Positions 1 to 58,254 of a DNA stretch of 64,000 nt are shown here, piece by piece. The translations under genes and the position numbers were made by a program. The DNA lies in assembly GCF_017948305.1 (NCBI RefSeq), contig NZ_CP072842.1:2300501-2364500 (forward strand). The letters run 5' to 3'. Under the pieces are notes generated by a model. It ran no database searches. It worked only from the letters and a program-made list of their open reading frames with translations, and had not been told where the DNA came from. Origin of the DNA: Faecalibacter bovis (lineage in GTDB: Bacteria > Bacteroidota > Bacteroidia > Flavobacteriales > Weeksellaceae). How positions within the stretch are numbered: position 1 is the stretch's first letter; each line of letters starts with the position of its first letter.

Positions 1-1916
1 TTATCCGTTTTTAACTCACGTAATTTAGCCACCCATTTCGCAGGTTCCCAATATTGTACTTGCGAATCGTGTAAACCAGTCGAAACATACATATTTGGAT
101 AGGCTTTGGCTTCTACATTATCGTAAGGCGAATATTCTTTCATGTAGAAGTAATAATCTTCCTCGTTTGGATTTCCCCATTCGTCGTATTCTCCAGTTGT
201 TAAAGGAATCGAATCATCTAACATGGTTGTTACCACATCTACGAAAGGAACTTGAGCTACAATACCGTTAAACAATGTTGGCTCATAATTAATAACTGCT
301 CCCATTAATAAACCTCCGGCTGATCCGCCCATTCCGTATAAGTGTGGAGTAGAAGTATAGCCTTTTTCTATTAAGTGTTTTGCACAATCGATGTAATCAA
401 AGAAAGTATTTTTCTTATCTAACATTTTACCGTCTTCGTACCATTCACGACCTAAATATTGTCCACCACGAATGTGCGCAATCGCATATACAAATCCACG
501 ATCTAATAAACTTAAACGAACTGAACTAAAGTTAGGTTCGATTGTGTAACCGTAAGAACCGTAAGCATATAATAATAAAGGCGTTTCAGCTGACAATTTT
601 GTGTCTTTGTGATGAACCAAAGAAATCGCAACTTTTTCTCCATCGCGTGCTTCAGCCCAAATACGTTCAGAAACATAATTGTCTTTATTAAAATCACCTA
701 AAACTTCTTGTTCCTTTTTCACTTCAAAAGTTTTGTCTTTCATGTTGAAATCAATCACAGAAGTAGGCGTTGTTAAAGAAGTATATCCGTAACGTAAAAT
801 ATCTGTATCAAAATCTGGATTAGTTCCCGATCCTGCTGTATATGTTTCTTCGTTAAATGGTAAATAATAATCTTCCGATCCGTCCCATGCTTTGATATTC
901 ATTTGCATCAAACCATTTGTACGTTCTTCGATTACTAAATAATTTTTGAAAATTTCAAAACCTTCGATAAATGTTTCTTCACGATGTGGAATTACCTCAA
1001 CCCAATTTTCTTGTCCTGTTTGATCAACAGGCGTTTTCATTAATTTGAAGTTGAAGGCATCATCTTTATTGGTTTGAATATAAAATTCATTTCCAAAATG
1101 CTCAATCGAATATTCTAAATCACGTTCGCGTTCTTGAAAGATTTTAAATTCTGCATCTGGTTCATTTGCTGGAATAAAACGATATTCATCTGAAACAGTT
1201 GAAGAAGAGCCAATGATAATATAATCTCTTGATTTTGATTTATAAATATATACTGAAAAAGTATCGTCTTCCTCTTCAAAAACTAAAACGTCTTCCTCTT
1301 GAGTTGTTCCTAATTTGTGTTTCCAAATTTGATAAGCGCGTAATGTTTCGTCTTTTCTTGTATAGAACAACGTTTTGTTATCAGCAGCCCAAACCGAACC
1401 ACCAGTTGTGTTTTCAATTTTATCAGCTAAAATTTCTCCAGTTGTTAAATCTTTAATTTGAATCGTATAAATACGACGCGAAACATTATCAACTCCGAAT
1501 GTACACATTTCGTTGTTTGGCGAAACAGATAAACCACCTAATTTGTAGTACGCATGACCTTCAGCCATTGGATTTACGTCAAATAAGATTTCATCTTCGT
1601 TTTCTAAAGACTCTTTGCGACGTTTGTGAATAGGATATTCTTTTCCTTTTTGGAATTCAGTTAAATACCAATAACCGTTTATTTTGTAAGGTACTGAAGA
1701 ATCATCTTCTTTGATGCGCGACTTCATTTCTTCGAACAATTTTGCTTGAAGTTCTTCTGTCGGTTTTAAAATTGCTTCAGTATATTTATTTTCTTCTTTT
1801 AAATATTGAATAACTTCAGGGTTTTCGCGTTCGTTCAACCAGTAATAGTTATCGATACGAATATCCCCGTGTTTTTCTAATTTCTTTTCTATTTTTTTAG
1901 CAACAGGTGCTTGCAT
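1..1916 (-). CDS. ptrB: Oligopeptidase B / prolyl oligopeptidase family S9 peptidase (3' end outside window)
   Basis: This gene encodes a serine peptidase of family S9A that cleaves peptides, classically after basic residues. About 638 codons are present and the C-terminus lies beyond base 1. The N-terminal half (about residues 1-400) is the beta-propeller that gates substrate entry. The C-terminal half is an alpha/beta hydrolase with the nucleophile in GGSAGG near residue 530 and the aspartate region GLHDSQVQ near residue 612. The catalytic histidine would lie in the missing part. No signal peptide is seen, so it is probably cytoplasmic. The ATG at 1916 fits the family N-terminus (NYYWLNERENPEV). 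A consensus promoter lies just upstream. The S9 family call is firm; the oligopeptidase B subtype is very likely. Confidence 0.9.
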   Translation of the reverse strand, partial: MQAPVAKKIEKKLEKHGDIRIDNYYWLNERENPEVIQYLKEENKYTEAILKPTEELQAKLFEEMKSRIKEDDSSVPYKINGYWYLTEFQKGKEYPIHKRRKESLENEDEILFDVNPMAEGHAYYKLGGLSVSPNNEMCTFGVDNVSRRIYTIQIKDLTTGEILADKIENTTGGSVWAADNKTLFYTRKDETLRAYQIWKHKLGTTQEEDVLVFEEEDDTFSVYIYKSKSRDYIIIGSSSTVSDEYRFIPANEPDAEFKIFQERERDLEYSIEHFGNEFYIQTNKDDAFNFKLMKTPVDQTGQENWVEVIPHREETFIEGFEIFKNYLVIEERTNGLMQMNIKAWDGSEDYYLPFNEETYTAGSGTNPDFDTDILRYGYTSLTTPTSVIDFNMKDKTFEVKKEQEVLGDFNKDNYVSERIWAEARDGEKVAISLVHHKDTKLSAETPLLLYAYGSYGYTIEPNFSSVRLSLLDRGFVYAIAHIRGGQYLGREWYEDGKMLDKKNTFFDYIDCAKHLIEKGYTSTPHLYGMGGSAGGLLMGAVINYEPTLFNGIVAQVPFVDVVTTMLDDSIPLTTGEYDEWGNPNEEDYYFYMKEYSPYDNVEAKAYPNMYVSTGLHDSQVQYWEPAKWVAKLRELKTD

Positions 1917-11678: not shown

Positions 11679-12132
11679 TCAAAAATCAAGTGATAAATCT
11701 GTTCGGTTTTATTCAAAATCTCATACCATAAAGATTGAAGGTAAAGAAGATTTAAAAGTTTCAGCAGCAAAAGCTTTTAAAGGCGATCCAAGCTTATATA
11801 ATCCTGAAGATTTGTTATTAAGCAGTTTAACATCATGTCATATGATGTCGTATTTATATTGTTGTTCTATTAATAATTTAGAAATCATTTCTTATCAAGA
11901 TAATTCAGAAGCTTTTTTAGAAGTTAATGCTGATGGTAGTGGAAAAATTACTAAAGTTATTCTAAAACCAACTGTAACGATTAAAGAGGAAGAAAATGTG
12001 CAATTAGCAAAAGATTTGCATCAAAAAGCGAGCGAATTATGCTTTATCGCAAATTCGTGTAACTTTCTAATAGAACATGAAATTTCAATTCAAATTGATT
12101 TAAATTCTACTATTCCAAAACATAAAATGTAA
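11638..12132 (+). CDS. OsmC-family peroxiredoxin-like protein
   Basis: This 164-residue protein has the start set at MKHTFKVGLNW. OsmC/Ohr proteins reduce organic hydroperoxides with two conserved cysteines. Here they are in LLSSLTSCHMMSYLYCC and in ANSCNFLIEHE. The glycine/proline segment NPEDLLLSSL that precedes the first cysteine is typical. It overlaps ung by 41 bases and so is probably translationally coupled to it. The substrate subgroup (OsmC, Ohr or YhfA) is not certain; the sequence looks closest to the YhfA/OsmC type. Confidence 0.85.
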   Translation: MKHTFKVGLNWISNQKSSDKSVRFYSKSHTIKIEGKEDLKVSAAKAFKGDPSLYNPEDLLLSSLTSCHMMSYLYCCSINNLEIISYQDNSEAFLEVNADGSGKITKVILKPTVTIKEEENVQLAKDLHQKASELCFIANSCNFLIEHEISIQIDLNSTIPKHKM

Positions 12133-26201: not shown

Positions 26202-29200
26202 ATGAATATTAAAAAACTACTTTCTCAAGGTGGAAAAGTTTTACCTCTTGCAATAGCCTTACTCTGTGGGAGTAATGCCTATGCAGAAGGATCTAAAGAT
26301 CTATATCCAAATGGAGTAACAGGTGGACGTGCTTTTTTGTATAGTAACTCTTATACAGGTACTATAGGATCTACAGTAGGATCATGGCCCTTCAAAACAG
26401 AAGGAACACATTATGCTTACGTTAAAGCTGGTGAAATACTGCATACAGCTTCCAGTGCACAAGGAATAGGAAATGGTATAATTAGATTAACAGCACCAAA
26501 TGGTACTGTTTATACTTCCTCAGGAACAACAGGACAAATAACCAATAGAACAGCAGAGCTTGCTGGTCCAAGATTAGCGTCGCAAGCTGCAGGAGGCAAT
26601 CGATATGCAACTTATAACCGTACTGCTTTAACGGCAGAAGAAGGGGTTTGGAAAATAGAATTTTTACCGACAGGAAATGTATCTTCTACAGGAACTCCTA
26701 CTGTTTCTAATATTGCAGCTAATGGTAGCTGGACGCAAGGTACAAGCTCAGAGCTTATTGCAGCTTGGGATGTATCTGTAGAGAGTGCAGGAGCTTGGGT
26801 GCCAGGAAGAGTTTATACCAATGTAATGAATTTACACATTAGTGGTAGTCAAACGGCAGGTTTTTATGGAAATATGTATGCGCTGACAAAAGATGGATAT
26901 ATTTATAAGGTAAATAATAACGGGAATAATGGTGTAGGTTTTACATTTTTTATAAATAACAAAGGTTTTTTGACTGACGTAAATGATACTAGCCCTTCTT
27001 ATAAAAGTAAAAATTTCACAACTGGTATTTCTTCTTTTGTACATTCTCCTTTGGCAGCAGATGCAGAGGATAATATAACACATAAAATTTTTTATAGTCA
27101 ACCAGCTCAAGATTTACCTACTTCTGCTAATGGTAGCGTCCCAAATAATAGTACATGGTTGAAAAATACCCCTATTACTCCAAATGCAAGTAATATTAGT
27201 ATTGTAGGAGCTGAAGGAACAGTTGGAGAATTGGGATTAAAAGGAGGGTATATTAATTTTACAGCAGATGCGCAAGGGATTTATACTATTACAATAGAAA
27301 GTTCTGGCCTGCCTTCTTTTGCAACCAGAACTTTAACGGGAACTGCGATTGCGGGTAATAACAAAATATTTTGGGATGGTAAGGATGGTAATAACAACTA
27401 TCTTCCAGGAACTAATGCCTCTGTGTTAGTGAAAGTACAGTTACGTGGAGCAGAGGTGCATTTCCCATTTATTGATATGGAAATTAATCCTAATGGACTC
27501 GTATTAGAACTTTTGAACGGAAACAATCCTCTTTCTGAAGAACGTTTTCGTGTTTATTGGGATGATAGCGATATTTCAAGAGTTGCTGGCACAAACAATA
27601 ACGGGAAAGCCCCTAATCCACTTGATGCAAGTGTAGCAGGTTCGCTTAGTGGACCTACAGGTACTGGAGGACATATGTGGGGACAGCAAAATAACAATAC
27701 CAGTCCATTAAGTAGTACTAACCTTTCTCAAGGATTTGGTAACAATAAATCTATAGATACTTGGTCATATATAAAAGGACCTGTAACAACAGTTAACACA
27801 ACAGTTGCTATTAAAAAAAGTGATTTATCAGCAACAGCTAATATAACAGATGTTTTAGGGGTTTCGGGCATAAATCCATCTTTATCAGAAGGTGATGCGT
27901 TTGGGTTTTATTCAAATATTTGGAATAACGGTCCAGATGCTATTTCTTCAGATGCAGAAGCAACAATAATGTTTGAAATACCAAATGGTGTAAGAATCAC
28001 CAATGTATCAAATAACGGAGGTGTTACATTAACTTATGATCCAGTATTAAGAAGATACACTGGTAAGAAGTCTAATTTTGGTGTAGGTCATATAGAATTT
28101 ATTTTTTCTGCAGTGGTTGACCATACAGATACCAATGCAACCAGTATTACTGGTAGTTTTGCACCAGTTGTACGTACTTTTACAGCAAGTGTATTGCGCC
28201 CAGCAGATTACGTGGACCCTATGGCAACTAACAATTCGGTAAATACACCTCCAACAGATATTTATAATGAGATTGCTTTAAATACTGTTAACGGAGGGAA
28301 TAGAAATATGAGTAGTGCTAGTATTTTCATCTTACAAGATTGTATGATGGATTATATATATGATGAAGGAGCTAGTTATAACGCTGGAGTTATTCACTAT
28401 CAGAATTTTAATACTTCATCTCCATTGATTAAAGATGGTAGAATCCCGTGGGTGAATCAACCTAATATATTGTCATCTACGTTAACTTCTAATGGAGGTG
28501 CTATTACCAACGGTTACCGTTTTTCACCAGGTTACAACGATCCGCTATATGATCCTAATTATATTGGAACTCACTTACCAACAGGTATTGGAGCTACACC
28601 TTCTGGCCCTATCAAGTATTTCGATTCCCATATTGGGGATGGTAGCTATGCAGTAGTACCGCCTGCTTTTGTTAGACTTGGCTGGGATCCTCGTTCGTTT
28701 ACAGACAATACTACTGTAAACGGTTCTTCTGCAATAGTTCCACATTGGGCACCTGGACAATCATATCCACAAGTATATGACTGGACAAATACCTACCCTT
28801 GGGACAACCCAGCAGATCCTTCTGTTCTAAATGTACTAGATATGTCAGGTCATTTAAACGGTGCAGCTTTTCTTGTAAAGGGTAATGTATCTCAATATCA
28901 AGGCATTCGACCATTCTATAGAATAGATGATGTTAAGCCAGAGATGGGTAAAACATATACATTACAATTGTTTTCGTATATAAACTATACGGCTAACACA
29001 GATTATATGTACATGGATTTGGTAGACCGTAATACTGGTGAAGTATATGCGTCAGCACAGTTAAAAGCAGATAATCCGCTACCAGGACCAGGAGCAGTTT
29101 CTTTTGGTTGGGTGCCGCTAAAAGCAGCTATTAATATTGGAACAATAGATTTTACAGGAAAAACAATGGATATCCAAATCCGTGGTAACCGTACAACTTT

Positions 29201-30149
29201 TGGGCATACATTGATAGATGATATTATGTACTTCGAAAACAAAGTAGGTGTACCATCTTGTGTAGTGCCAGTCGATATTTTTGAGCCTTCTGAATGTACA
29301 GAACCAATTTTAGGAGAAGATTTCAGTATGAGTAATGCTACAGATCCAATCGTTAATAATACAATTAGCAAAACTTTTATTCAACCAACTGGAGCAGATC
29401 AAGGCTTTACATTAGATATTTACTATTTAGATAATTCATTTAATATGGAAATTAATGGTAGTAAACTGTCAAATATGGAAATAGAATTTCATAATCAAGG
29501 AGGCATGGTTTCTAATGTTCGTTTTGAGTCAGACGATGCTGGATATGGCCCTACTTTTATAAATGGTATACCAAATATTTGGCAAATCGGAAATGCAGCC
29601 AGTAAAGTACCTGCATTACGCATAGATATAGACCCCACAGGTAATGTTACACTTTGGGGTAGAAGAAGTGCAACAGCTCCATTTGAAAAACTGAAATTGA
29701 TAAACGGTGCTACTTTAAACCGTGTTAATTGGAATGTAACTTCAAGTAATACAATACTAGCTACACAAAGTACTTTATGGCCACCTACAGCTATGATAGG
29801 TACTGGTTATGGTAAAAAAGCAGTTCCATGTGCTGCACCAAAATGTGTTAAACCAGCTGCTTCAGGTACCTCATCAGTTCGTACGAATGTAGGAGTTTCA
29901 ACAAAAGCAAATGTAACATCGGGATGGCCAGAAGTTGTACCAAATGGATATATCGCATTAGAAAGTTCAAATGCTGGTTTAGTAATTCCTCATATGACTA
30001 CAACACAACGAGACGCACTAACAGCGGTTGAAGGAATGCTTATTTACAACACAACAGAAAAATGTGTCCAATTATACAGAGGTGAATCCCCATTGATTGA
30101 TCCTTCAAGAAAAGGATGGAACTGTTTGGAAAGAGGTTGTAACGAATAA
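26202..30149 (+). CDS. Large secreted surface protein (1315 aa)
   Basis: A signal peptide of about 28 residues ends SNAYA. The mature protein is rich in Gly, Asn, Ser and Thr and mostly beta. It includes a DUF11-like segment (WNNGPDAISSDAEATIMFEI, about residues 570-650) and carbohydrate-binding-like parts (about 900-1000). The C-terminus reads SNAGLVIPHMTTTQRDALTA, then GMLIYNTTEKCVQLYRG and a Cys-containing end. That closing motif, rather than a T9SS KxxK tail, is shared with the next gene. Similar proteins occur in Elizabethkingia and Chryseobacterium. A structural or adhesin role is an inference. The codon pattern is more GC-balanced than its neighbours. Confidence 0.75.
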   Translation: MNIKKLLSQGGKVLPLAIALLCGSNAYAEGSKDLYPNGVTGGRAFLYSNSYTGTIGSTVGSWPFKTEGTHYAYVKAGEILHTASSAQGIGNGIIRLTAPNGTVYTSSGTTGQITNRTAELAGPRLASQAAGGNRYATYNRTALTAEEGVWKIEFLPTGNVSSTGTPTVSNIAANGSWTQGTSSELIAAWDVSVESAGAWVPGRVYTNVMNLHISGSQTAGFYGNMYALTKDGYIYKVNNNGNNGVGFTFFINNKGFLTDVNDTSPSYKSKNFTTGISSFVHSPLAADAEDNITHKIFYSQPAQDLPTSANGSVPNNSTWLKNTPITPNASNISIVGAEGTVGELGLKGGYINFTADAQGIYTITIESSGLPSFATRTLTGTAIAGNNKIFWDGKDGNNNYLPGTNASVLVKVQLRGAEVHFPFIDMEINPNGLVLELLNGNNPLSEERFRVYWDDSDISRVAGTNNNGKAPNPLDASVAGSLSGPTGTGGHMWGQQNNNTSPLSSTNLSQGFGNNKSIDTWSYIKGPVTTVNTTVAIKKSDLSATANITDVLGVSGINPSLSEGDAFGFYSNIWNNGPDAISSDAEATIMFEIPNGVRITNVSNNGGVTLTYDPVLRRYTGKKSNFGVGHIEFIFSAVVDHTDTNATSITGSFAPVVRTFTASVLRPADYVDPMATNNSVNTPPTDIYNEIALNTVNGGNRNMSSASIFILQDCMMDYIYDEGASYNAGVIHYQNFNTSSPLIKDGRIPWVNQPNILSSTLTSNGGAITNGYRFSPGYNDPLYDPNYIGTHLPTGIGATPSGPIKYFDSHIGDGSYAVVPPAFVRLGWDPRSFTDNTTVNGSSAIVPHWAPGQSYPQVYDWTNTYPWDNPADPSVLNVLDMSGHLNGAAFLVKGNVSQYQGIRPFYRIDDVKPEMGKTYTLQLFSYINYTANTDYMYMDLVDRNTGEVYASAQLKADNPLPGPGAVSFGWVPLKAAINIGTIDFTGKTMDIQIRGNRTTFGHTLIDDIMYFENKVGVPSCVVPVDIFEPSECTEPILGEDFSMSNATDPIVNNTISKTFIQPTGADQGFTLDIYYLDNSFNMEINGSKLSNMEIEFHNQGGMVSNVRFESDDAGYGPTFINGIPNIWQIGNAASKVPALRIDIDPTGNVTLWGRRSATAPFEKLKLINGATLNRVNWNVTSSNTILATQSTLWPPTAMIGTGYGKKAVPCAAPKCVKPAASGTSSVRTNVGVSTKANVTSGWPEVVPNGYIALESSNAGLVIPHMTTTQRDALTAVEGMLIYNTTEKCVQLYRGESPLIDPSRKGWNCLERGCNE

Positions 30150-42723: not shown

Positions 42724-44520
42724 TTATTTAAGTAACACAAGAAAATCTAACAATTCTTCTTCAACTACTTCTTGCCATTCTTCAACCGTCATATTTTCGA
42801 AAATTTTGAAATTATTTTTTTCTCTAATATTCTTGTAACCTAAACCTTTTTCAGAAACAATATTTTTTATTAAAGTTTTGACATTATCTTCTGGTGTAAA
42901 ATTTGGAAAAGTTTCTAATTCGCAATCATAAACTCTTTCGATACATCTAGGATGATAGTAATTTTCAATACAACTTCGGAATATTACGTATGCTTGAGCG
43001 TTTTGTTTTCGATTGATATAATCTTGAGCTTTTTGATGTTGTGAATCTTGTTTATTTTGTTGTTTATCACTATCAATTAATAAAAATAATTTTCGACCAG
43101 AATTATCAAAATAGTCAAGATTTAAAAAGCTATCTATATCAGCTCCTCCGCCAAATGGTAATACCAAAACTTTTGGATTTCCAATCAAATTAAAATCTAA
43201 TAGTTTTCGACATATTATATCATAAAATTTCATGTCATTTGTACTTTCAACAAATAAGATACTTTCATGATTATCTCTTAAATTAAATGATGGTTTAATT
43301 CCTAACTCATCAATGATTTTAAATAAAAATTCTCTCTCATTACCTTCAACTGCATTTTCATAATTTGATTGAGTTCTTTTTGTACATAAAACGACACCTT
43401 CAATATGTGTTGCACCTGCAAATACAGGAGAGTGTGTTGTGGTAACAACTTGGTTTTCATTCGATAATTCTTTTAAAGCATTCAATAAATCTTGCTGAGC
43501 CGTTGGATGTAAAAATGTTTCAGGTTCTTCTATTAAATAAATGATATTATTCCCTTTACTTTTCTGAGCCAGATATCTAAATCTAGCAACCATAAATAAT
43601 CTACGATAGCCTGTACCTTTATGAGTCATTGGGATGAATTTATCATCACCTGCGAATTGAAAGGAAACATCAACACTTTTGATTGCATCTTTCCACGCAA
43701 CATTTGGACTAATATCAATATCTAATAAATTAGAAGCATATTCTTGCATATAAGTTTTAAGAATATCAGCTTCTTTTTTCATTTCAGCATTAATCTCATT
43801 CTTAAAAATTACTAACCTATCTTCAACACGACTAAAATATTCCTCAATTTCTGTGACCGTAGCTGTTTTAAATTTTGTATCAGCTTCTAAGCCATAATCT
43901 GCTTTAAACATTTCTACTTCTGGAAATAATGATGAAATCTTCATGTCATCAGGAATCCAAAAATTAGCTCTAGGCTCATCTTTAAAATGCTCCTTTATAA
44001 ATTTTATTTTCTCAGCTTTAGAATTTCTTCCTTTACCTTCTACTGGAATTACAATTCCAAATTTTTCTACAATTGCTGTGATTTCTTCATCAGATTTAAA
44101 ATATAAACCTTGAATTTCAGAATTTTCAAAATCATTAATTAGAATATGCTCTTCACTCCAAGATTTTCCGATATTATATGCTATTCTTTTATAAATAATA
44201 GAATTATCGAAAATCAAATCATTAATAAATTCATCTAACCCTTCAGTCTTCTTTACTTTTGATTTTACTTTAGTTTCAAGTAAATCAGAAATTGAATCTG
44301 AGCTGAATTGAAATTCAAACTCAATTGGTTTACTTAAATCATTAAAATCTGTTTGTGTTATGGTGAAACTTTTAATGTCTAAAAATGTTGCAATTGCATT
44401 TAATACTATTGTTTTACCAGCATCATTTTTACCAACTACTGATGAAAATCTAGCAAGATTTATTGAGCGCGTTTCTTTTACTCCTCGATAATTAGTTATT
44501 TTTAAGTTAGAAATATACAT
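42724..44520 (-). CDS. OLD-family ATPase-TOPRIM nuclease
   Basis: This 598-residue protein has an ABC-type ATPase with Walker A in VVGKNDAGKTIVLNAI near residue 35 and the signature/Walker B in YLIEEPETFLHPTAQQDLL near 333. THSPVFAG follows. The C-terminal TOPRIM domain has ILFVESTNDMKFYD near 424 and LLIDSDKQ near 480. OLD and GajA proteins of this plan are nucleases in phage defence. No GajB-type helicase is next to it, so this is not a standard Gabija system. It lies 41 bases after hsdS on the same strand and is probably cotranscribed with the restriction genes. Confidence 0.9.
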   Translation of the reverse strand: MYISNLKITNYRGVKETRSINLARFSSVVGKNDAGKTIVLNAIATFLDIKSFTITQTDFNDLSKPIEFEFQFSSDSISDLLETKVKSKVKKTEGLDEFINDLIFDNSIIYKRIAYNIGKSWSEEHILINDFENSEIQGLYFKSDEEITAIVEKFGIVIPVEGKGRNSKAEKIKFIKEHFKDEPRANFWIPDDMKISSLFPEVEMFKADYGLEADTKFKTATVTEIEEYFSRVEDRLVIFKNEINAEMKKEADILKTYMQEYASNLLDIDISPNVAWKDAIKSVDVSFQFAGDDKFIPMTHKGTGYRRLFMVARFRYLAQKSKGNNIIYLIEEPETFLHPTAQQDLLNALKELSNENQVVTTTHSPVFAGATHIEGVVLCTKRTQSNYENAVEGNEREFLFKIIDELGIKPSFNLRDNHESILFVESTNDMKFYDIICRKLLDFNLIGNPKVLVLPFGGGADIDSFLNLDYFDNSGRKLFLLIDSDKQQNKQDSQHQKAQDYINRKQNAQAYVIFRSCIENYYHPRCIERVYDCELETFPNFTPEDNVKTLIKNIVSEKGLGYKNIREKNNFKIFENMTVEEWQEVVEEELLDFLVLLK

Positions 44521-44561: not shown

Positions 44562-45797
44562 TTACCCCTCCAACGTTGCTAAGCGACTTAACATCAATGA
44601 TTGGAGTTGAGTGAGTTTTTGGTTTTGCAAAAATAAATTCTCTAATTTTTTTCTTATAATTAATATATTATTATCAAATATTTCAACTAAATCCAATGTA
44701 GGATTTAAAAATCTTAGCTTTGGGATTGTTGATACGTTTAATGCTTGCATTACAGTACCTGTATCTTTATTATCATCAATTTCTTTTTTCATATAATCAG
44801 ATAGTAATAACGTTATTAAAAATGATGGAAAATTAAAACCTTCCTTTAACCTTAAAGCAGTCATATTTCTACCTAATGCTGCATTTACACCTTTTGGTAT
44901 TTGAGCAATGCCATCAACACCAACATTTGTAATAAAACAATCACTGTTATTTAGCTCAATACGTGATGTCCATAACTCATAATCTTCGTCTGAAATATTA
45001 TATTTTTTGCTAAGATCTAATAACCCATATTTACCTATATTATTTACCTGCAAAAGAATATTTTGACTATTACTTTCTTTTATTTCTTCAGGCTTCTTAG
45101 AATGTAAGCAATCTATTACATAAGTTATGTCTCCTAAATTTGAAATAACCCAACCTCCAGGGATTTCCTTTTCTAATTCTTGGTTGTACACCATTGCACC
45201 ACCAGAAGATTTGTAAGGTTTACCTTCTTCGTTTGGAAATTCAAAATCGACAAACCATTGCTTGTATAAGGTTTGAGCAGTGGCATCTAACTTCTCGCAG
45301 ATTTGTTCGTTGACTTTGATTTTTTTTGCTACCGCTTGGTATTGGGCTACAATTTCGCGTTGTTTTTCGATGGAGGGAACAGGTAATTCTACTTCACATA
45401 AATCTTCCCAGTCAAAAGATTCTCTTGTACTTCCATGCGAATGATAACGAGCATAACGATCAAATTCTGGTCGAGAAAACCACATCATCAAATATTCAGG
45501 TAGCAATTCATTTTTATCTATTACTTCAAATACTATGTAGATTTGAGAAACCAAAGCCTTTTCATATTCATCAGCTAATGCAATAGATATTTTATCTCCA
45601 TTTCTTGATGTAATGGTTCCGTATGCGAATTGTCCCTTTTCAATAATTTTATATGTAGACATATCCGTTCCAACCGTATTTGCAATGGATGGAATCAGTT
45701 TTTTTGTAATACTTACACCAAGCAATGTATCAACTTGTAAATCTCTGTTACGATTATTTACTTGTTGAATATAATCACCCAACTTTTTATAACTCAT
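44562..45797 (-). CDS. hsdS: Type I restriction specificity subunit (HsdS)
   Basis: This 411-residue protein has two target-recognition domains. The first (about residues 1-150) ends in the conserved helix VELPVPSIEKQREIVAQYQ, with a long coiled spacer (about 150-200). The second (about 205-360) ends in a matching helix (NLFLQNQKLTQLQSLMLSRL). It sets the DNA sequence recognised by the M and R subunits. Its start overlaps the end of the original hsdM frame by 11 bases, the usual coupled arrangement, which the hsdM frameshift now breaks. Confidence 0.9.
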   Translation of the reverse strand: MSYKKLGDYIQQVNNRNRDLQVDTLLGVSITKKLIPSIANTVGTDMSTYKIIEKGQFAYGTITSRNGDKISIALADEYEKALVSQIYIVFEVIDKNELLPEYLMMWFSRPEFDRYARYHSHGSTRESFDWEDLCEVELPVPSIEKQREIVAQYQAVAKKIKVNEQICEKLDATAQTLYKQWFVDFEFPNEEGKPYKSSGGAMVYNQELEKEIPGGWVISNLGDITYVIDCLHSKKPEEIKESNSQNILLQVNNIGKYGLLDLSKKYNISDEDYELWTSRIELNNSDCFITNVGVDGIAQIPKGVNAALGRNMTALRLKEGFNFPSFLITLLLSDYMKKEIDDNKDTGTVMQALNVSTIPKLRFLNPTLDLVEIFDNNILIIRKKLENLFLQNQKLTQLQSLMLSRLATLEG

Positions 45798-46062
45798 AGC
45801 CCAACGATTTAAATACGTTTGCTACTTCTTGCTTCAATGCTTCTTCTTGTTGAAATAACTCTTTCAGTTCGGTTTGCAACGATTGCATTTGGGTATCGTA
45901 GTCGATGTTTTCGTCACGGTTTACAAACGCTATGTATTTGCTTGGTACCAACGAATAATCCTTTTTACGAATTTCTTCTAAAGTTGCGCTGTAACAATAT
46001 TCGGGAACGTTTGCGTAAGTTGGGGCGAATTGCAATTCGCCCGTACAATCGCTCTTTCTCTC
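45787..46062 (-). pseudogene. hsdM: Displaced C-terminal end of HsdM
   Basis: In a frame different from the main hsdM frame the sequence reads TYANVPEYCYSATLEEIRKKDYSL, then VPSKYIAFVNRDENIDYD and a coiled end (LQTELKELFQQEEALKQEVANVF). This is the normal C-terminus of a type I methylase, which docks HsdS. It has been put out of frame by the REP palindrome at 46023-46042. Confidence 0.85.
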
Positions 46063-47410
46063 TCTCATCGTCGCCAATTTCTTCACCGCTAAGTGTCTGC
46101 CAGTTATGATAGGTTGATGCAATCTGCTCAATATCTTTTTCAGAAAACTGAATGAATTTCTTTTCAAACGGTTCACCTTTTTGACGTAAATCCATAAACA
46201 ACACTTCACCTTCGCGGTTACGGTAATGTCGGGGAGAATCGCAATTCGCCCTTACTTCAGTGCGTTCCATTTTATTACGGTTCAAAATCCAAAGTGTCAC
46301 CGAAATATCTGTAGAATAAAACATCGCTCTTGGTAAAATTACAATTGCTTCTACCAAGTCGTTTTCTATAATTTGTTTACGGATTTTGTATTCTTCACCA
46401 CCACCCGAAAGCGCACCATTGGCTAAGATAAAACCAGCGACACCGTTTTGCGATAGTTTAGAAATCATATTCAAAATCCACGCATAGTTGGCATTGGATT
46501 TTGGAGGAACTTCGTAACCAGTCCACCGTGGATCATCCGTTAATTCGTTTTCCGCGCGCCAATCTTTTAAATTGAACGGAGGATTCGCCATGATGTAATC
46601 AGCTTTCAATGCTGCGTGCTGATCGTCACCAAACGTATCGGCCGCTTTGTTTCCTAAATTGGCAGAAATCCCACGAATGGCTAAGTTCATTTTAGCCAGT
46701 TTAAACGTGGTATTCGTTAACTCTTGTCCGTAAATGGAAATGTCTTTTTTGTTTCCTTGGTGTTTCTCAATAAACTTCAACGATTGTACAAACATACCAC
46801 CCGAACCACAAGAAGGGTCATAGATTTTCCCTTTGTAGGGTTCAATCATTTCGGCAATCAAGTTTACAATCGACTTTGGCGTATAGAATTCTCCTTTCCC
46901 TTTTCCTTCGGCAATGGCAAATTTGCTCAAGAAATATTCGTACACACGTCCTACAATATCTTGGGCTTCATCACGAAGCGTATCGATGTTATTGATAGTA
47001 TCCAATAAAGCCGAAAACTTAGATTGATCCAATCCTAATCTTGAGAAATAGTTGTCAGGTAACGCACCTTCTAAAGATTTGTTGGTACGTTCTATGGTTT
47101 TAAGTGCGGTATCTACTTTTAGCGTAATGTCTTCTTGTTTGGCATTTTCGATAATGTATTCCCAACGCGATACTTCAGGCAAATAGAATACGTTTTCTGC
47201 CTGATAAAATTCTGGTATTTCTAAGAAGGCTTCTTTACCTTCAGCTTTTAATTCTTCTCTGCGTTTGATGAATTTATCACTTGCAAATTTCAAGAAGATT
47301 AAACTCAATACCACGTGTTTATATTCTGAAGGTTCTATTGAACCACGTAATTTATTTGCTGCATCCCAAAGGATTTCTTCTGTACTTTTGGTTTGTACTT
47401 TTTTGGCCAT
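45965..47410 (-). CDS. hsdM: Type I DNA methyltransferase subunit (HsdM), C-terminus frameshifted
   Basis: This 481-residue frame includes the N-terminal helical domain and the methylase core. The AdoMet motif IYDPSCGSGGMFVQS is near residue 200 and the catalytic NPPF in YIMANPPFNLKDW near 276. After GEEIGDDEREKERL a REP palindrome shifts the frame, and the last 30 or so residues are non-native (GRIAIRPNLRKRSRIL). A second REP copy adds an in-frame RANCDSPR in the loop before HYRNREGEVLFMDLR. Loss of the HsdS-docking end probably inactivates the enzyme. Confidence 0.85.
   Translation of the reverse strand: MAKKVQTKSTEEILWDAANKLRGSIEPSEYKHVVLSLIFLKFASDKFIKRREELKAEGKEAFLEIPEFYQAENVFYLPEVSRWEYIIENAKQEDITLKVDTALKTIERTNKSLEGALPDNYFSRLGLDQSKFSALLDTINNIDTLRDEAQDIVGRVYEYFLSKFAIAEGKGKGEFYTPKSIVNLIAEMIEPYKGKIYDPSCGSGGMFVQSLKFIEKHQGNKKDISIYGQELTNTTFKLAKMNLAIRGISANLGNKAADTFGDDQHAALKADYIMANPPFNLKDWRAENELTDDPRWTGYEVPPKSNANYAWILNMISKLSQNGVAGFILANGALSGGGEEYKIRKQIIENDLVEAIVILPRAMFYSTDISVTLWILNRNKMERTEVRANCDSPRHYRNREGEVLFMDLRQKGEPFEKKFIQFSEKDIEQIASTYHNWQTLSGEEIGDDEREKERLYGRIAIRPNLRKRSRILLQRNFRRNS
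46023..46042. repeat. REP palindrome 5, frameshifting hsdM
   Basis: This is a perfect GGGCGAATTGCAATTCGCCC inside hsdM. The frame changes exactly across it. Confidence 0.9.
46232..46251. repeat. REP palindrome 6 (degenerate), in frame in hsdM
   Basis: GGGAGAATCGCAATTCGCCC differs from the palindrome at two positions and encodes part of an extra loop (RANCDSPR). The frame is kept, so this older insertion was tolerated. Confidence 0.75.
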
Positions 47411-49105: not shown

Positions 49106-49660
49106 CTACCGTTCACTCGTTAAACATCGCTGCTGTATAAGTTTACAAGCCTCAAGTAATTTATGATAATCAAGGATTGATACACTGCAAACAAAGTCTT
49201 TTCCATAAGTGTCATCAGCCATTGCGGCAAGTATTAGATTAAAAAATGATTTACTAACCTTTTCAATTCGATGCTTTTTAAAAATATTTTCGAAAACGAT
49301 ATAGGGATTTTCAGTCTCATTTAGATCTAAATATTTCACTTCTTGCAACCGTTTTTCAGAGAAATGATATTCGCAAAAATTCCTTCTATTAAATTCCTCT
49401 GGATTTATAAAAATTTTATACCCTAATTTTATAATAGACTGAAAAACAATGGTATCATAGATTACTTCTGAAACTCTTCTTCTATCATACATTACATGAC
49501 TTAAGGAATATAAACAATAATGATCTAATTGTTGATGAAAATATTCCATACCTGCTTGTTCTTTTAATAAAACCAAAAGTTCATACGGGCATTCAACCTG
49601 ATCTTTCGTCCAATAATAGGAATCTAAAGTTAATTCAAACATCTTCATCATAAATTTCAC
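49106..49660 (-). CDS. Unknown small helical protein B (184 aa), two-repeat domain
   Basis: This soluble protein could start at any of three Met codons in the first seven. It consists of two copies of one domain of about 80 residues. The second copy reads NPYIVFENIFKKHRIEKVSK ... LILAAMADDTYG ... YHKLLEACKLIQQ. The first is a more diverged match (CPYELLVLLKEQ ... VFQSIIKLGYKI). The same domain occurs twice in the preceding gene, which it overlaps by up to 26 bases. No known family is recognised. It is last in the four-gene operon. Confidence 0.7.
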   Translation of the reverse strand: MKFMMKMFELTLDSYYWTKDQVECPYELLVLLKEQAGMEYFHQQLDHYCLYSLSHVMYDRRRVSEVIYDTIVFQSIIKLGYKIFINPEEFNRRNFCEYHFSEKRLQEVKYLDLNETENPYIVFENIFKKHRIEKVSKSFFNLILAAMADDTYGKDFVCSVSILDYHKLLEACKLIQQRCLTSER

Positions 49661-50180
49661 GATTATAAATTAACCAGCATGCATCTAACAACCTATTGAT
49701 GTTGATAAATGAAATACAAATATCTTCTGATGGGCAACTGCCATAACTCCCTAAAGTATGCTCCATAATATCTTCTAAATCTAATTCAATTTGTGAAAAG
49801 CTTTGTTCATTAAAAACATGCTTAATAATCAGGTATGGATTTAAGTATTGCTCGTAGGTTAAACCAGATGCATAGACTAAATACTTCGAATGTAATACAT
49901 CATTAGACTCACTTTTACGTTCATATTGATCAATATTCCTTAAAATTTTAAAACTTGCGCGAATTAACGAATTTGTCATTGTGAAAAACTTTAAAGACTC
50001 AAAAGGGTTTGTGTAGATTTCGTATTTATCATCAAATGCATGTTTTAAGATTTGATTAAAATTTGTCTTTATTTTAGTGATCGATTCCGTTTCAAAAAAC
50101 ACTTGAATTAGTTTATATGGATCTTTAATTTTGTTTCCATGCCAAAGCTCGGCTCTTAGATATAACTTTTCTTTTTTCAT
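49635..50180 (-). CDS. Unknown small helical protein A (181 aa), two-repeat domain
   Basis: This soluble protein also has two copies of the repeated domain. The N-half is DPYKLIQVFFETESITKIKT ... ILKHAFDDKYE ... NSLIRASFKI and the C-half is NPYLIIKHVFNEQSFSQIEL ... IMEHTLGSYG ... INRLLDACWLI. The shared pattern is NPY, a helix ending in V-F, a longer amphipathic helix, then a final helix with LL-AC-LI. It lies 6 bases after the 520-residue gene. Function is unknown; a binding or adaptor role is an inference. Confidence 0.7.
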   Translation of the reverse strand: MKKEKLYLRAELWHGNKIKDPYKLIQVFFETESITKIKTNFNQILKHAFDDKYEIYTNPFESLKFFTMTNSLIRASFKILRNIDQYERKSESNDVLHSKYLVYASGLTYEQYLNPYLIIKHVFNEQSFSQIELDLEDIMEHTLGSYGSCPSEDICISFININRLLDACWLIYNREIYDEDV

Positions 50181-50185
50181 GAGAT

Positions 50186-51748
50186 CTAATTTTTAAATTC
50201 GTTTGAAGATTGAAGGTGGGCAAATAATGTGGTAACAAACTTATCTACTAAGGTACAGGTGGATTCATCTAAGAGCAATTGACCTTCTTCTATAAATTCA
50301 TTTTGTAATTTTTGCAATAAGGAACTAAGCTGATTTATTTCGGTAGTAGAAAATTTATCAAGTAAAGTATTATTTGCAAAAATCATTAAATTCCATAGTG
50401 TTATGAGGTTTTTTGATTGTGGTTTGTAAATAATTTCACTATAAATAAATGTTTTTAAATGATTTATGAAGAAATCAACTAACATTTTCTTGGAAATATA
50501 TTTTCTAGTGTTTTTACTTTCTAATATCGGTTTAATGTTGGATTCATAATGAAACAAATTCAATTCGTATAATCCTTTTAAATCATCTATAGTACAGATT
50601 TCTTCATTGTGCCAATGAATTTTAGGATAATAACCAGCGCTATAAATTTTATTCTTGGATTTCATTACCTTTTTAAAAAAACATTGATATTTATAAAGTT
50701 TACTTTGAATTTGATAGCGTGTATAGCAAATACTTGTTAAACAAACATCTTCAATGGGATTATGTTCTATGTGTTGCAAATAGGTTTTTAGTTCTTCTGT
50801 TGCTTTCTGTTTAATTACAACAAATACATAAAGATGTTCGTGCAGTCCACTATTACCAAAAGTTGTGATTTGATGAAACACAAACAATTCTTCAACCTCA
50901 TCAAACTTTTTCAATTGATTTAAAGCTTCATGATGCATTAATTCATGACCGTAAACTTCATTACTTTTTTCAACCCTTAGTATGGGACTACCATTATATT
51001 TATCCGTATATAGTGTGATATTTTGATGAACTAACTTGTAGAATAATTTCTGAATCTTTTGAAGACTTTTTCCAAAATCGTCGTAATAGCCTGAATCATC
51101 ATCATGAATGATATAATCAATTAAAAAGTAAGTTTGTTCATCTTTTTTAACCAATAGTTTTTTCATTTCTGGAATAAAACGCTCTAAAATCAACATGCGT
51201 TGCGTTATTGTTTTATTTTCAAATGAAGTTCCGAAAACCATGAGTTCTAAATACGTAATATCATTTGCAAATGCTTTTATGATAAATTGCCAAGCGCCTT
51301 GTAATTTTTCTGTTATAAAATCTGTACTTATCTTATTTAATAGCTGATGTTTTTCTTCATAACTATCCCTTATTTTCATATGATAGGTCTCTTTTAAATA
51401 CGTATGCTGTGTTACTTTTTCAGTGCTATACAAACAATTATCTTCATAAAGTAAATGAGCGAGTATGAAATCGTTAAATCGCAGAGAATATTCAAAATCT
51501 TTCTTATCAAGAAAGACAATTAAAATTTGATTTTCTCTTAAAATAGCATTTTGGTAATCGACAGAAATTGATTTTTCAATTTCTTTTTTATCTATCACTT
51601 TTAACCATAAAATATGATACTCCGTACGCTCGGTTTTATCAAACCAAATAGCTCGAATTGCTTTTGAACGAATACTTTCTTCCAATTTACAGTTTAATTC
51701 ATCTGGGAATCGAACTGTTTTACTGTTTCTTTTTTCTTGAATATTCAT
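50186..51748 (-). CDS. Unknown 520-aa protein, possible nucleotidyltransferase/HEPN-like fold
   Basis: There is no signal peptide or membrane helix. The plan seems to be two alpha/beta parts (about residues 30-110 and 270-350), each followed by long helices. The second alpha/beta part reads EELFVFHQITTFGNS and LYVFVVIKQ, followed by YPKIHWHNEE. This resembles the layout of tandem nucleotidyltransferase plus HEPN proteins of Bacteroidota, but neither the G-S/D-x-D nor the R-x4-6-H catalytic motif is evident. It lies 11 bases after the 540-residue gene and shares its overall layout. Confidence 0.6.
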   Translation of the reverse strand: MNIQEKRNSKTVRFPDELNCKLEESIRSKAIRAIWFDKTERTEYHILWLKVIDKKEIEKSISVDYQNAILRENQILIVFLDKKDFEYSLRFNDFILAHLLYEDNCLYSTEKVTQHTYLKETYHMKIRDSYEEKHQLLNKISTDFITEKLQGAWQFIIKAFANDITYLELMVFGTSFENKTITQRMLILERFIPEMKKLLVKKDEQTYFLIDYIIHDDDSGYYDDFGKSLQKIQKLFYKLVHQNITLYTDKYNGSPILRVEKSNEVYGHELMHHEALNQLKKFDEVEELFVFHQITTFGNSGLHEHLYVFVVIKQKATEELKTYLQHIEHNPIEDVCLTSICYTRYQIQSKLYKYQCFFKKVMKSKNKIYSAGYYPKIHWHNEEICTIDDLKGLYELNLFHYESNIKPILESKNTRKYISKKMLVDFFINHLKTFIYSEIIYKPQSKNLITLWNLMIFANNTLLDKFSTTEINQLSSLLQKLQNEFIEEGQLLLDESTCTLVDKFVTTLFAHLQSSNEFKN

Positions 51749-51759
51749 TACACTATAGT

Positions 51760-53352
51760 TTAATTGTTCTCAAGTTGTATTTCATTAAACAGCTTTTCGC
51801 AAAGTCCTAAGGTTTTTGCACATGAAAGCTGATCGATATCTCTTAATAGGATATTATTTTTAGGTAAGAAGTCTATTGGAGTACTTAGTAAATGAAGTAT
51901 AGTTTGGACTTCAATAGAGTCAATATATTTAAAGTATATTTCAGGTAAAAGGGCTTGAAATAATTTTATTAAATATCTGCTACTGTAAATAGCAGGAATG
52001 TATTGTAGCTTTTGATATAAAAGCCCAAGAATTAACTGTTGCAAGATGTTTTTAAGAAGTAAAATATGTCCGGATTGGTAGACTAAATCCTGCTTTTGAA
52101 AAGCAGTAAACCAAGGCGAAATATAGGTTAAGCGTTGTGTCCAATACTTTTCTTGTAATTGTTTGGTATTATTAGCTTTATAAAGCTTTTTGTTTATTAC
52201 TAAGTTGTTTTTCATATACAAAACATTTTGATGTAATATGTATTTATTTAAAAATAGCTGTAAAGTTTCTTCATTTTTTTGAAGCCATTCCAACGTATGA
52301 ATTAAACAAAATACTTCTACTTCCTTTTTGAAATGATTAGAAACCTCTTGAACTAATGCATCGTGTTGTTGAATACGAAGTGTTGGGGCAATTATAAGCA
52401 GATTAAACTTATAAGTATGGGTGCCATTTGAGTCATTTATTTTTTCTGTACTTAATAGATAAATGGCATCTATTTTATATTTACTGATTAAAAAAGTAAC
52501 GAGATTTTTTAATAGCGTTTTTTCATTTAAACGATCCGGTAGTTGTGCATCGATTCGTTTCGAGTAAAAGATATTCGTTCGTTTAAATCCATGCGTTAGG
52601 AGATCTAATGCGCTTTTCATGGTTTTATCGAAAATACTTTTGGGAGTTTCTCCCAGTGTATAGTGCGATTGATCGATAAATAAAACCTCTTTCATTTTAG
52701 TGATTTTATAGACGATTTTTGAGAACATTGGATAATACGCATCTATAAATAAAATAAATTCTTCCTCGTTATACCTGTGATGGAGGCTATTTGGAAGCAG
52801 CATATTTTTTAACAAGTCATAATAGTAAGAAAAGACTTCAAGTAAAGCTAAATGTGCCGATTGGTAATGTTGCTGTTTGACCAATGGATCAACAAATACA
52901 GAGATAGCTTCATGTACTTTATTATCAACTTCCTTAATGTAATTTCGGAAATGAAGTTTAGACTTTTGTTTATCTGTACAGTAATAATTTTGGAATAAAC
53001 TGTTCCATCGCTTAATATGATTGCTGTAAATAACATAATAAGGTTGTAAATGCAATTGCAAATAACTAAAATGGAAATGGGAATCATTTGATGAAACGGT
53101 ATGATAATTTATGGTTATTAAAATATCATACTTTTCTAAAGCATTTAAGGCATCTATTTGTGGTTGTAACTCACAAACTAAAGCATCATAATTTTGTTTA
53201 TCAACGACTATGGTTAATATTTTTAGTTTACTGTGAACCACAACGGTATAAAACACCAACATAAGTTCTAAACTACATACCGCATGGGTAATAAAATTTT
53301 GAACAGGCATTGCCAAGTCTTTTGGTAGGTTTAATGTATTTATTTCTTTCAT
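51760..53352 (-). CDS. Unknown 530-aa protein, possible nucleotidyltransferase/HEPN-like fold
   Basis: The start is set at MKEINTLNLPKD; in-frame ATG and TTG codons up to 53382 would add ten residues. The first half has LKILTIVVDKQNYDAL and DILITINYH, then helices (AHLALLEVFSYYYDLLKN). The second half repeats the plan: IDAIYLLSTEKIND, KFNLLIIAP and EVFCLIHTLEWLQ, then HILLLKNILQQLILGLLYQK, which resembles a HEPN core helix. Catalytic residues are not evident. It is first in the four-gene operon and divergent from an XRE gene. Confidence 0.6.
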   Translation of the reverse strand: MKEINTLNLPKDLAMPVQNFITHAVCSLELMLVFYTVVVHSKLKILTIVVDKQNYDALVCELQPQIDALNALEKYDILITINYHTVSSNDSHFHFSYLQLHLQPYYVIYSNHIKRWNSLFQNYYCTDKQKSKLHFRNYIKEVDNKVHEAISVFVDPLVKQQHYQSAHLALLEVFSYYYDLLKNMLLPNSLHHRYNEEEFILFIDAYYPMFSKIVYKITKMKEVLFIDQSHYTLGETPKSIFDKTMKSALDLLTHGFKRTNIFYSKRIDAQLPDRLNEKTLLKNLVTFLISKYKIDAIYLLSTEKINDSNGTHTYKFNLLIIAPTLRIQQHDALVQEVSNHFKKEVEVFCLIHTLEWLQKNEETLQLFLNKYILHQNVLYMKNNLVINKKLYKANNTKQLQEKYWTQRLTYISPWFTAFQKQDLVYQSGHILLLKNILQQLILGLLYQKLQYIPAIYSSRYLIKLFQALLPEIYFKYIDSIEVQTILHLLSTPIDFLPKNNILLRDIDQLSCAKTLGLCEKLFNEIQLENN

Positions 53353-53523
53353 AATCAACAATTTAAATAATGAATACATCAAAATTGATTAATTATAACA
53401 AGGTATCGAACCATAAAGTAAAGTAACGTACCATGATTACGTGGTAAATAACATATTGAGGGAAAATTTTTAGAGAATATTTTAAGAAAATAGCCTATAT
53501 TTGAGTATATATAATTTTGGCTT

Positions 53524-53937
53524 ATGGTAACGACACAAAAAAAACATATAGGACGCAACATCAGTCGCATTCGTGAAATGAAGGGAATGAAACAAGAAAC
53601 TTTAGCTGAACTGTTAGGTATTAGCCAACAAAAAATGTCGGTAATTGAAAACACACCGGATTTGGAAGATGCAAAACTGGACAATATCGCGAAAGCCCTT
53701 GAAGTACCTACACAAGCCATTAAAGAATATTCGGATGAACGAATGATTAATTACGTAAATAATTTCTACGACAATAGCTCATCTCAAGGTAATAGTTTTA
53801 ACCAAGGAATGTATACAACCTTCAACCCTTTAGATAAACTGGTAGAGGCATATGAAGAGAATAAAAAATTATACGAGCGTCTGTTAGCTGCTGAAAAGGA
53901 AAAATTAACTTATATAGAGCAATTATTAAAAAAATAA
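53524..53937 (+). CDS. XRE-family regulator, divergent from the unknown operon
   Basis: This 137-residue protein has an N-terminal HTH (IGRNISRIREMKGMKQETLA, LLGISQQKMSVIE) and a linker with YVNNFYDNSSSQ. It ends in a C-terminal coiled coil (KLVEAYEENKKLYERLLAAE) that should dimerise it. It shares a roughly 140-170 bp control region with the leftward four-gene operon and is its probable repressor. A hairpin terminator follows. Confidence 0.85.
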   Translation: MVTTQKKHIGRNISRIREMKGMKQETLAELLGISQQKMSVIENTPDLEDAKLDNIAKALEVPTQAIKEYSDERMINYVNNFYDNSSSQGNSFNQGMYTTFNPLDKLVEAYEENKKLYERLLAAEKEKLTYIEQLLKK

Positions 53938-56855: not shown

Positions 56856-56874
56856 TTTACTTTCCGATACAGAA
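56856..56874. repeat. Right attachment-site direct repeat (3' end of mnmE)
   Basis: TTTACTTTCCGATACAGAA covers the last codons and stop of mnmE. It is identical to 18079-18097. Confidence 0.85.
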
Positions 56875-58254
56875 CTTCCCGAAAATAGTTCCTAAAATAT
56901 CTTGGTCCACGTCAATTTCTCCGGTGATGTGTCCTAAATAAGTTAAGGCTTCGCGGATGTCCATGGCTAATAAATCACCTGGAAGACCACTGTCCATTCC
57001 TTGTTTAATTTTACCAATTTGGATTAACGTATTTTGTAAAGCTTCTAAGTGACGTGAATTGGTTACAATTGTATCATCTTGACTAGAACCTTTCAATTTC
57101 ATTTGATAAACCAACTGCTCTTTTAATGCATCAATATTGTATTGATCTTTTGCTGAAATTTCTAAATGAACTACATCTTTAAATTCTTGACGAATAGCAT
57201 CAGAAATCGCCGATTGCTTGTTTGTTACATCAATTTTATTGGCAACGTTAAATAGGATTTTTCCTTTACCTTGAAGTTCATCTAATTGTTGCGCAATTTG
57301 ATTTTCTTCGGTAATATTAGCATCGTACAGGTAAATCACGATAGTTGCATCGTTAATTTTTTCGAAAGTTTTTTCGATACCTATTTGTTCAATTGTATCT
57401 CCAGCTTTACGAATTCCGGCAGTATCAATGAAACGGAATCCAACACCTTCGATATAGATTGTTTCTTCGATGGTATCACGAGTTGTTCCTTCAATATCCG
57501 AAACAATTGCACGTTCTTCGTTTAATAAGGCATTTAATAAAGTAGATTTTCCTGCATTTGGAGCTCCGACAATAGCAACAGGTACACCATTTTTAATAAC
57601 ATTTCCGAAGGCAAACGAATCTGCCAAACGTTTTAAAATTGATTGTAACTGATTTAATAAAGCATAAAATTGAGTTCGATCAGCAAATTCTACATCTTCT
57701 TCAGAAAAATCTAACTCTAATTCCATTAAAGCTGCGAAATTAATCATCTGATCACGCAAATCTTTAATTTGATTAGAAAATCCTCCACGCATTTGTTTAA
57801 TGGCAACTTCATGCGATGCTTTAGAATCTGAGGCAATCAAATCCGCAACGGCTTCGGCTTGAGTTAAATCCATTTTTCCATTCCAAAATGCTCTAAATGT
57901 ATATTCTCCTGGATTGGCATTGCGAATGCCTATTTTATTTAAAAGTTCTAAAACTTTTTGCTGTATATAAATAGAACCGTGTGTAGAAATTTCTACGACA
58001 TCTTCACCTGTGTATGAATGTGGATTTTTAAATATAGAAAATAAAGCTTCGTCAATAATTGTGTCATCATCCATAACATAACCTAAGTGTATGGTATGTG
58101 ATTCTGCATCAGTTAATGATTTGTTCTTATTAAATTTTGATTGATAAATCTGAGCTACTTTGGTGATGGCTTCTGGTCCTGAAATTCGTATAACGGCTAT
58201 GGCACCCATTCCGTTGGCTGTAGCTAAAGCGCAAATTGTATCGTTATTTATCAT
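56857..58254 (-). CDS. mnmE: tRNA modification GTPase MnmE (TrmE)
   Basis: This 465-residue protein works with MnmG to modify the wobble uridine of certain tRNAs (cmnm5U), using 5-formyl-THF and GTP. The N-terminal formyl-THF domain opens MINNDTICALATANGMGAIA. Helical regions flank the G domain, with P-loop GAPNAGKSTLLNALL near residue 231, VSDIEGTTRDTIEE (G2), IDTAGIRKAG (G3) and NVANKIDV (G4). The C-terminal CIGK carries the essential cysteine. The island insertion preserves this end exactly, so the gene should be functional. Confidence 0.95.
   Translation of the reverse strand: MINNDTICALATANGMGAIAVIRISGPEAITKVAQIYQSKFNKNKSLTDAESHTIHLGYVMDDDTIIDEALFSIFKNPHSYTGEDVVEISTHGSIYIQQKVLELLNKIGIRNANPGEYTFRAFWNGKMDLTQAEAVADLIASDSKASHEVAIKQMRGGFSNQIKDLRDQMINFAALMELELDFSEEDVEFADRTQFYALLNQLQSILKRLADSFAFGNVIKNGVPVAIVGAPNAGKSTLLNALLNEERAIVSDIEGTTRDTIEETIYIEGVGFRFIDTAGIRKAGDTIEQIGIEKTFEKINDATIVIYLYDANITEENQIAQQLDELQGKGKILFNVANKIDVTNKQSAISDAIRQEFKDVVHLEISAKDQYNIDALKEQLVYQMKLKGSSQDDTIVTNSRHLEALQNTLIQIGKIKQGMDSGLPGDLLAMDIREALTYLGHITGEIDVDQDILGTIFGKFCIGK

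Follow-up and report, generated by a model that had tools for sequence, protein, structure and literature searches.

The 64,000-nucleotide stretch of Faecalibacter bovis DNA analysed here (the window; NZ_CP072842.1, positions 2,300,501 to 2,364,500) carries a compact operon of four genes, A-B-C-D, that diverges from a gene, X, for an XRE-family helix-turn-helix (HTH) protein. The explanation tentatively favoured for this unit, at somewhat less than an even chance, is an XRE-controlled mobile module resembling toxin-antitoxin or abortive-infection systems, in which A and B would be catalytically dead tandem proteins of nucleotidyltransferase (NT) and HEPN folds acting with helical-repeat partners, and in which a role in defence is presumed because defence genes lie near the module. 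This explanation is supported by HEPN and MNT fold matches on separate parts of the modelled B, missing catalytic motifs, the defence context, a divergent X gene beside C, B and a further gene, E, in relatives, selection, mosaicism and patchy occurrence. Within the operon the genes are separated by gaps of 11 and 5 bases followed by an overlap, and both the operon with its divergent regulator and its undescribed nature, as proposed by a sequence-only reading of the DNA, were borne out. None of the products of A-D matched a curated Pfam or NCBIfam family above cut-off or a PADLOC 2.0.0 family at E <= 1, matches to PHROGs were at chance level only, and comparison of A and B with PDB sequences gave nothing convincing; the PADLOC matches of X were to HTH-containing models only. 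The module is undescribed in the libraries searched and, as modelled, builds on known HEPN and MNT folds, and the family may represent a new anti-virus or mobile-element module.

Predicted folds and motifs of the large proteins

A and B are distant paralogs of each other. Both had been read as NT- and HEPN-like, which an AlphaFold2 (AF2) model and fold comparison support for B, and distant paralogy supports for A. The AF2 model of B, of moderate confidence, presents a single chain ordered as NT, HEPN, NT and helical bundle, and the HEPN and MNT structure matches fall on separate parts of this chain. All of the top six fold-comparison rows cover the HEPN-like part; three of them (2q00, 2pbe and 3jyy) are HEPN-superfamily structures according to passages of a 2013 HEPN survey (PMC3710099), and two more carry HEPN in their titles (4nqf and sacsin, 3o10). 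Foldseek agrees weakly, with a probability of 1.00 for 4nqf and of 0.84-0.90 for the HEPN toxins 7ae2/7ae9, at E values of about 0.1.

The motifs expected of active enzymes were not aligned in the sampled family. A GS..DxD-like pattern occurs in the second NT part in none of the 24 B rows and none of the five A rows of the alignment, and in the first NT part in one B row and no A row. In the HEPN part, histidines 132 and 134 (window numbering) are present in 21/24 and 23/24 B rows, respectively; an aligned R-x4-6-H motif is absent, an arginine standing at the right spacing for these histidines in 9/24 and 8/24 rows. This lack of an aligned HEPN or NT catalytic motif makes RNase activity or nucleotidyl transfer by A or B unlikely. 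The best reading of A and B is that of catalytically dead NT-HEPN tandem proteins, their folds being assigned at model level, and the best-supported picture is one in which the large proteins would keep the MNT and HEPN folds for binding rather than for chemistry, which suggests that such folds may persist when catalysis does not.

In common with the HEPN-MNT (HepT-MntA, type VII) toxin-antitoxin systems, the operon appears to combine HEPN and MNT folds. However, those systems encode toxin and antitoxin as separate genes, whereas the modelled B fuses NT, HEPN, NT and helical parts in one chain, and the window operon also differs in lacking an aligned R-x4-6-H or GS..DxD motif and in possessing two paralogous copies, an XRE gene and helical partners. 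Aminoglycoside nucleotidyltransferases likewise join an NT domain to a HEPN-like C-terminal domain, but B and A differ from them in that GS..DxD is not aligned and a second NT domain is predicted. According to part of PMC3710099, the predicted RNase residues are typically absent from HEPN domains that are joined to MNT; a family with the layout seen here, an XRE partner or proteins like C and E was not found among the inactive MNT-fused HEPN domains in that part of the survey.

Partner proteins and the conserved unit

Relatives were sampled from 296 genomes of the family (33 genera), 295 genomes across the class and 14 genomes of the window's genus. The sequence-only reading had treated A-B-C-D as the unit of the system, a claim that did not survive: D is broken or largely missing in relatives, and in the wider family a single B is accompanied by E and usually by one C, so what is conserved is not this set of four. 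Among the three genomes with the operon, D is intact only in that of the window, with a premature stop in one same-genus relative and most of the gene missing in the other. The expected co-occurrence was found in part, since A-B-C-X stand together in 3/14 genus genomes, of which only that of the window has the four-gene set complete. A is present in 3/60 relatives (the window genome counted), all of this genus, its orthologs in two same-genus genomes being 82-83% identical; G151 and G137 likewise contain A-B pairs. Homologs of B were found at 63 places, some of them partial matches, in 48/296 family genomes and 5/33 genera, and in 3/295 class-wide genomes, two of these belonging to the window's family.

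The conserved unit was counted in 24 loci from named contigs, several of which are near relatives of each other. The commonest form, X|C-E-B with X divergent, accounts for 19/24 loci (Chryseobacterium, Epilithonimonas, Flavobacterium and Empedobacter), and X homologs were found near B-family genes. Elsewhere, the stretch examined contains B but neither X nor C nor E (L055 and L063, B being broken up in the latter), X and B occur alone (L065), or X, C and B lack E (L074 and L075); L072 carries C twice, comparable to the C-D pair of the window. X|A-B-C-D, the form found in the window, is one among several arrangements, and X, B and C plus E or A provide a testable gene set for a family undescribed in the libraries searched.

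The proposed repeated helical domain of the small proteins is supported by the AF2 model of C, which is better than that of B and shows two three-helix units, and by the paralogy of D; fold searches with the C model yielded no clear structural match to HEPN or another fold. C-family matches occur in 41/48 B-bearing genomes. The E protein of C-E-B loci has 212-227 residues, and none of three E proteins scanned against Pfam gave a match above cut-off. In 11/24 loci, that of Empedobacter brevis among them, B is followed at a distance of at most 1 kb by a further small gene, F (52-58 codons), which was not found in the window; the only Pfam match of F, to DUF2624, is sub-threshold. A conserved example of F is the L073 six-frame piece 11774-11953 (+), which has equivalents elsewhere.

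Values of dN/dS lie at 0.12-0.36 for the genes and pairs tested between the window and the orthologous same-genus units (L034 and L035). The gene histories are mosaic: C is 97% identical to that of G012 and B only 68%, and against G001 B is 85% identical and C 73%.

In the mechanism envisaged, X would repress the divergent promoter region, where a candidate operator was noticed by eye: the inverted repeat TACCA-8-TGGTA (53429-53446), which is similar in two relatives. A and B may still possess the surfaces with which MNT and HEPN domains bind nucleotides or RNA and their partners, and may serve as sensor or scaffold. C and D (or C and E) would bind A/B and carry or gate the effect, with E and F as putative partners in relatives, and release of the complex on entry of a phage or mobile element might then harm or arrest the cell or block the invader.

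Features of the X|A-B-C-D unit, with the predicted parts of protein B
Feature	Position	Strand	Description
gene D	49106..49660	-	180-184 aa; C paralog (phmmer)
gene C	49635..50180	-	181 aa; two three-helix units; AF2 model
gene B	50186..51748	-	520 aa; four-part NT/HEPN-like chain; AF2 model and fold comparison
gene A	51760..53352	-	530 aa; distant B paralog; NT/HEPN-like layout, catalytic motifs not aligned
X-A intergenic region	53353..53523	.	contains candidate operator
gene X	53524..53937	+	137 aa; XRE-family HTH protein; HTH_3 E 8e-6
B, NT1	residues about 12-110		AF2 model and fold comparison
B, HEPN-like	residues about 97-252		AF2 model and fold comparison
B, NT2/MNT-like	residues about 265-376		AF2 model and fold comparison
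B, C-terminal helical bundle	after NT2/MNT-like part		AF2 model and fold comparison

Defence genes and the mnmE site

The defence-rich surroundings noted from the sequence recur across the family. The nearest X-side open reading frame (ORF) of at least 150 residues is a PADLOC match (E <= 1e-15) in 8/20 loci, comprising GajB, GajA, MkoA, a DRT-associated primase twice (in L067 and L076, which are alike), type I and type IIG restriction and Ppl. HsdM lies within 10 kb of 7/62 B places against 0.48 expected, three of the seven being orthologous loci, and 167 PADLOC families were matched by 106 flank proteins (15 loci) against 69 by 131 proteins of 18 random regions, where the matches listed were mostly to helicase models. 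The module shares islands with Gabija, Mokosh, DRT, restriction-modification and other defence systems, none of whose PADLOC models matches A-D.

In the window the unit has type I restriction genes on one side and mnmE on the other. Across the genus, mnmE has on its 3' side (window 56857-58254; L164-L173) an insertion site that varies in content and frequently carries a tyrosine-recombinase-like gene. The survey of this site covered 10 of the 11 genomes of the genus in which A is missing, one of them (L167) as a 3.3-kb contig end. Such a gene lies within about 1 kb of mnmE in six surveyed genomes (two confirmed by Pfam, four identified by eye), and G008 carries a 95% identical HsdM at the site and no unit, so the site behind mnmE is variable and the unit is cargo that genomes of this genus may or may not carry there.

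Mobility genes, a structured RNA and competing explanations

The favoured reading draws its defence role from association, and mobility genes are an equally strong association, which weighs against it. The main rival, a lesser but real possibility, holds that the unit is a backbone module of integrative or mobilisable elements, with X, C, E and B governing how the island is excised, transferred or maintained and with the defence genes as mere cargo. Relaxase or serine-recombinase homologs occur in 14 of 21 long-flank loci and a weak tyrosine-integrase match alone in one more, and mobility proteins lie within 5 kb in 11/21 modules against 0/36 random regions, a test biased by its queries, which came from the flanks themselves and from mnmE islands. 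One large serine-recombinase lineage is tied to B, lying within 8 kb of a B gene at nine of its ten places of at least 74% identity; the tenth, in G311, is partial (residues 219-521 only) in a genome where no B was matched, and none of the listed places at 71% identity or less is near a B place (lists compared by eye). Despite this, six long-flank loci (L054, L060, L061, L072, L074 and L075) have no mobility match and the others vary between relaxase and serine recombinase, so that no single machinery is always linked to the module; moreover, B is absent at most serine-recombinase places and unmatched in plasmid, phage and viral-contig collections. The serine-recombinase lineage was seen downstream of B in L066, L067, L068, L073, L076 and L077.

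A structured RNA bears on another alternative. With a profile of the C family, as many as 10 copies were found in a genome, the majority of copies in those genomes lying away from B, and 17 of 20 hand-picked stand-alone C loci yielded a C ORF. A 258-base non-coding element is present in 13 of these 20 loci and in one random control region, and was found neither in the window nor in the window's genome. Its copies (L118:4829-5084, L124:5157-5414 and 12 more) have a small HTH gene diverging on one side and in many cases a C-family gene on the other; in L121 the element is not directly upstream of C. The consensus has 64 pairs, 15 of them with compensatory changes, and compensatory cells number 41, compared with 12.7 for shuffles and no more than 9 for slid versions, the structure being derived from the same alignment; a single copy folds 3.6 standard deviations below its own shuffles, and the copies scanned against Rfam were unmatched. 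By BLAST the RNA occurs in 200/296 sampled family genomes and 8/295 class-wide. At the best 30 loci, a small divergent ORF (73-132 residues) stands at the RNA 5' end in 28 and a C gene is present in 20, fractions that are biased because the loci are those matching a single copy best and include some examined before; most of the divergent ORFs are HTH-like by reading, one being confirmed by Pfam. Seven class-wide hits fall outside the family. Five of them are strong, and each of these has a small divergent HTH-like ORF, with no C gene seen in the 3.3-3.5 kb read; the other two are weak, one lying at a contig end, and neither feature was seen there. Close to the HTH-RNA pair in other families (L174 and L175), ImmA/IrrE-type-peptidase-like and ADP-ribosyltransferase-like genes were seen by eye.

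On this evidence C could work with structured RNA in stand-alone units, where the RNA precedes many C genes, and the NT-HEPN proteins could substitute for RNA in the window unit. The absence of the RNA from the window and its genome, and its occurrence without C in the five strong outside hits, leave this the least probable of the explanations. A wider proposal, itself unlikely, is that the window unit derives, with added proteins, from a large class of XRE-governed modules in Bacteroidia that has gone unrecognised. The simplest form of this class would be a divergent small HTH gene with a conserved structured RNA; C would have joined later, and in the window lineage HEPN/MNT pseudo-enzymes would have replaced the RNA, the class giving a new RNA- or pseudoenzyme-based principle of immunity or addiction. 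A strict addiction module of HEPN-MNT origin, with one of C, D or E as toxin and A/B and X as antitoxin and regulator, would suit the modelled folds, the XRE gene and the compact overlapping genes, but the HEPN and MNT catalytic motifs are not aligned and D has been lost in relatives while the remaining genes stay, making it distinctly improbable.

Several other features of the window were observed. A 1315-residue protein (26202-30149) has zero Pfam matches at E <= 0.001. The hsdM gene (45787-47410) looks shortened, at 481 residues against 521-547 in relatives; its PF02384 match stops at 277 of 311, and at its 3' end there is an overlap with another reading frame (45787-46209). Within the type I restriction genes, hsdS and hsdR have a gene for an OLD-like AAA_15 ATPase (42724-44520) between them.
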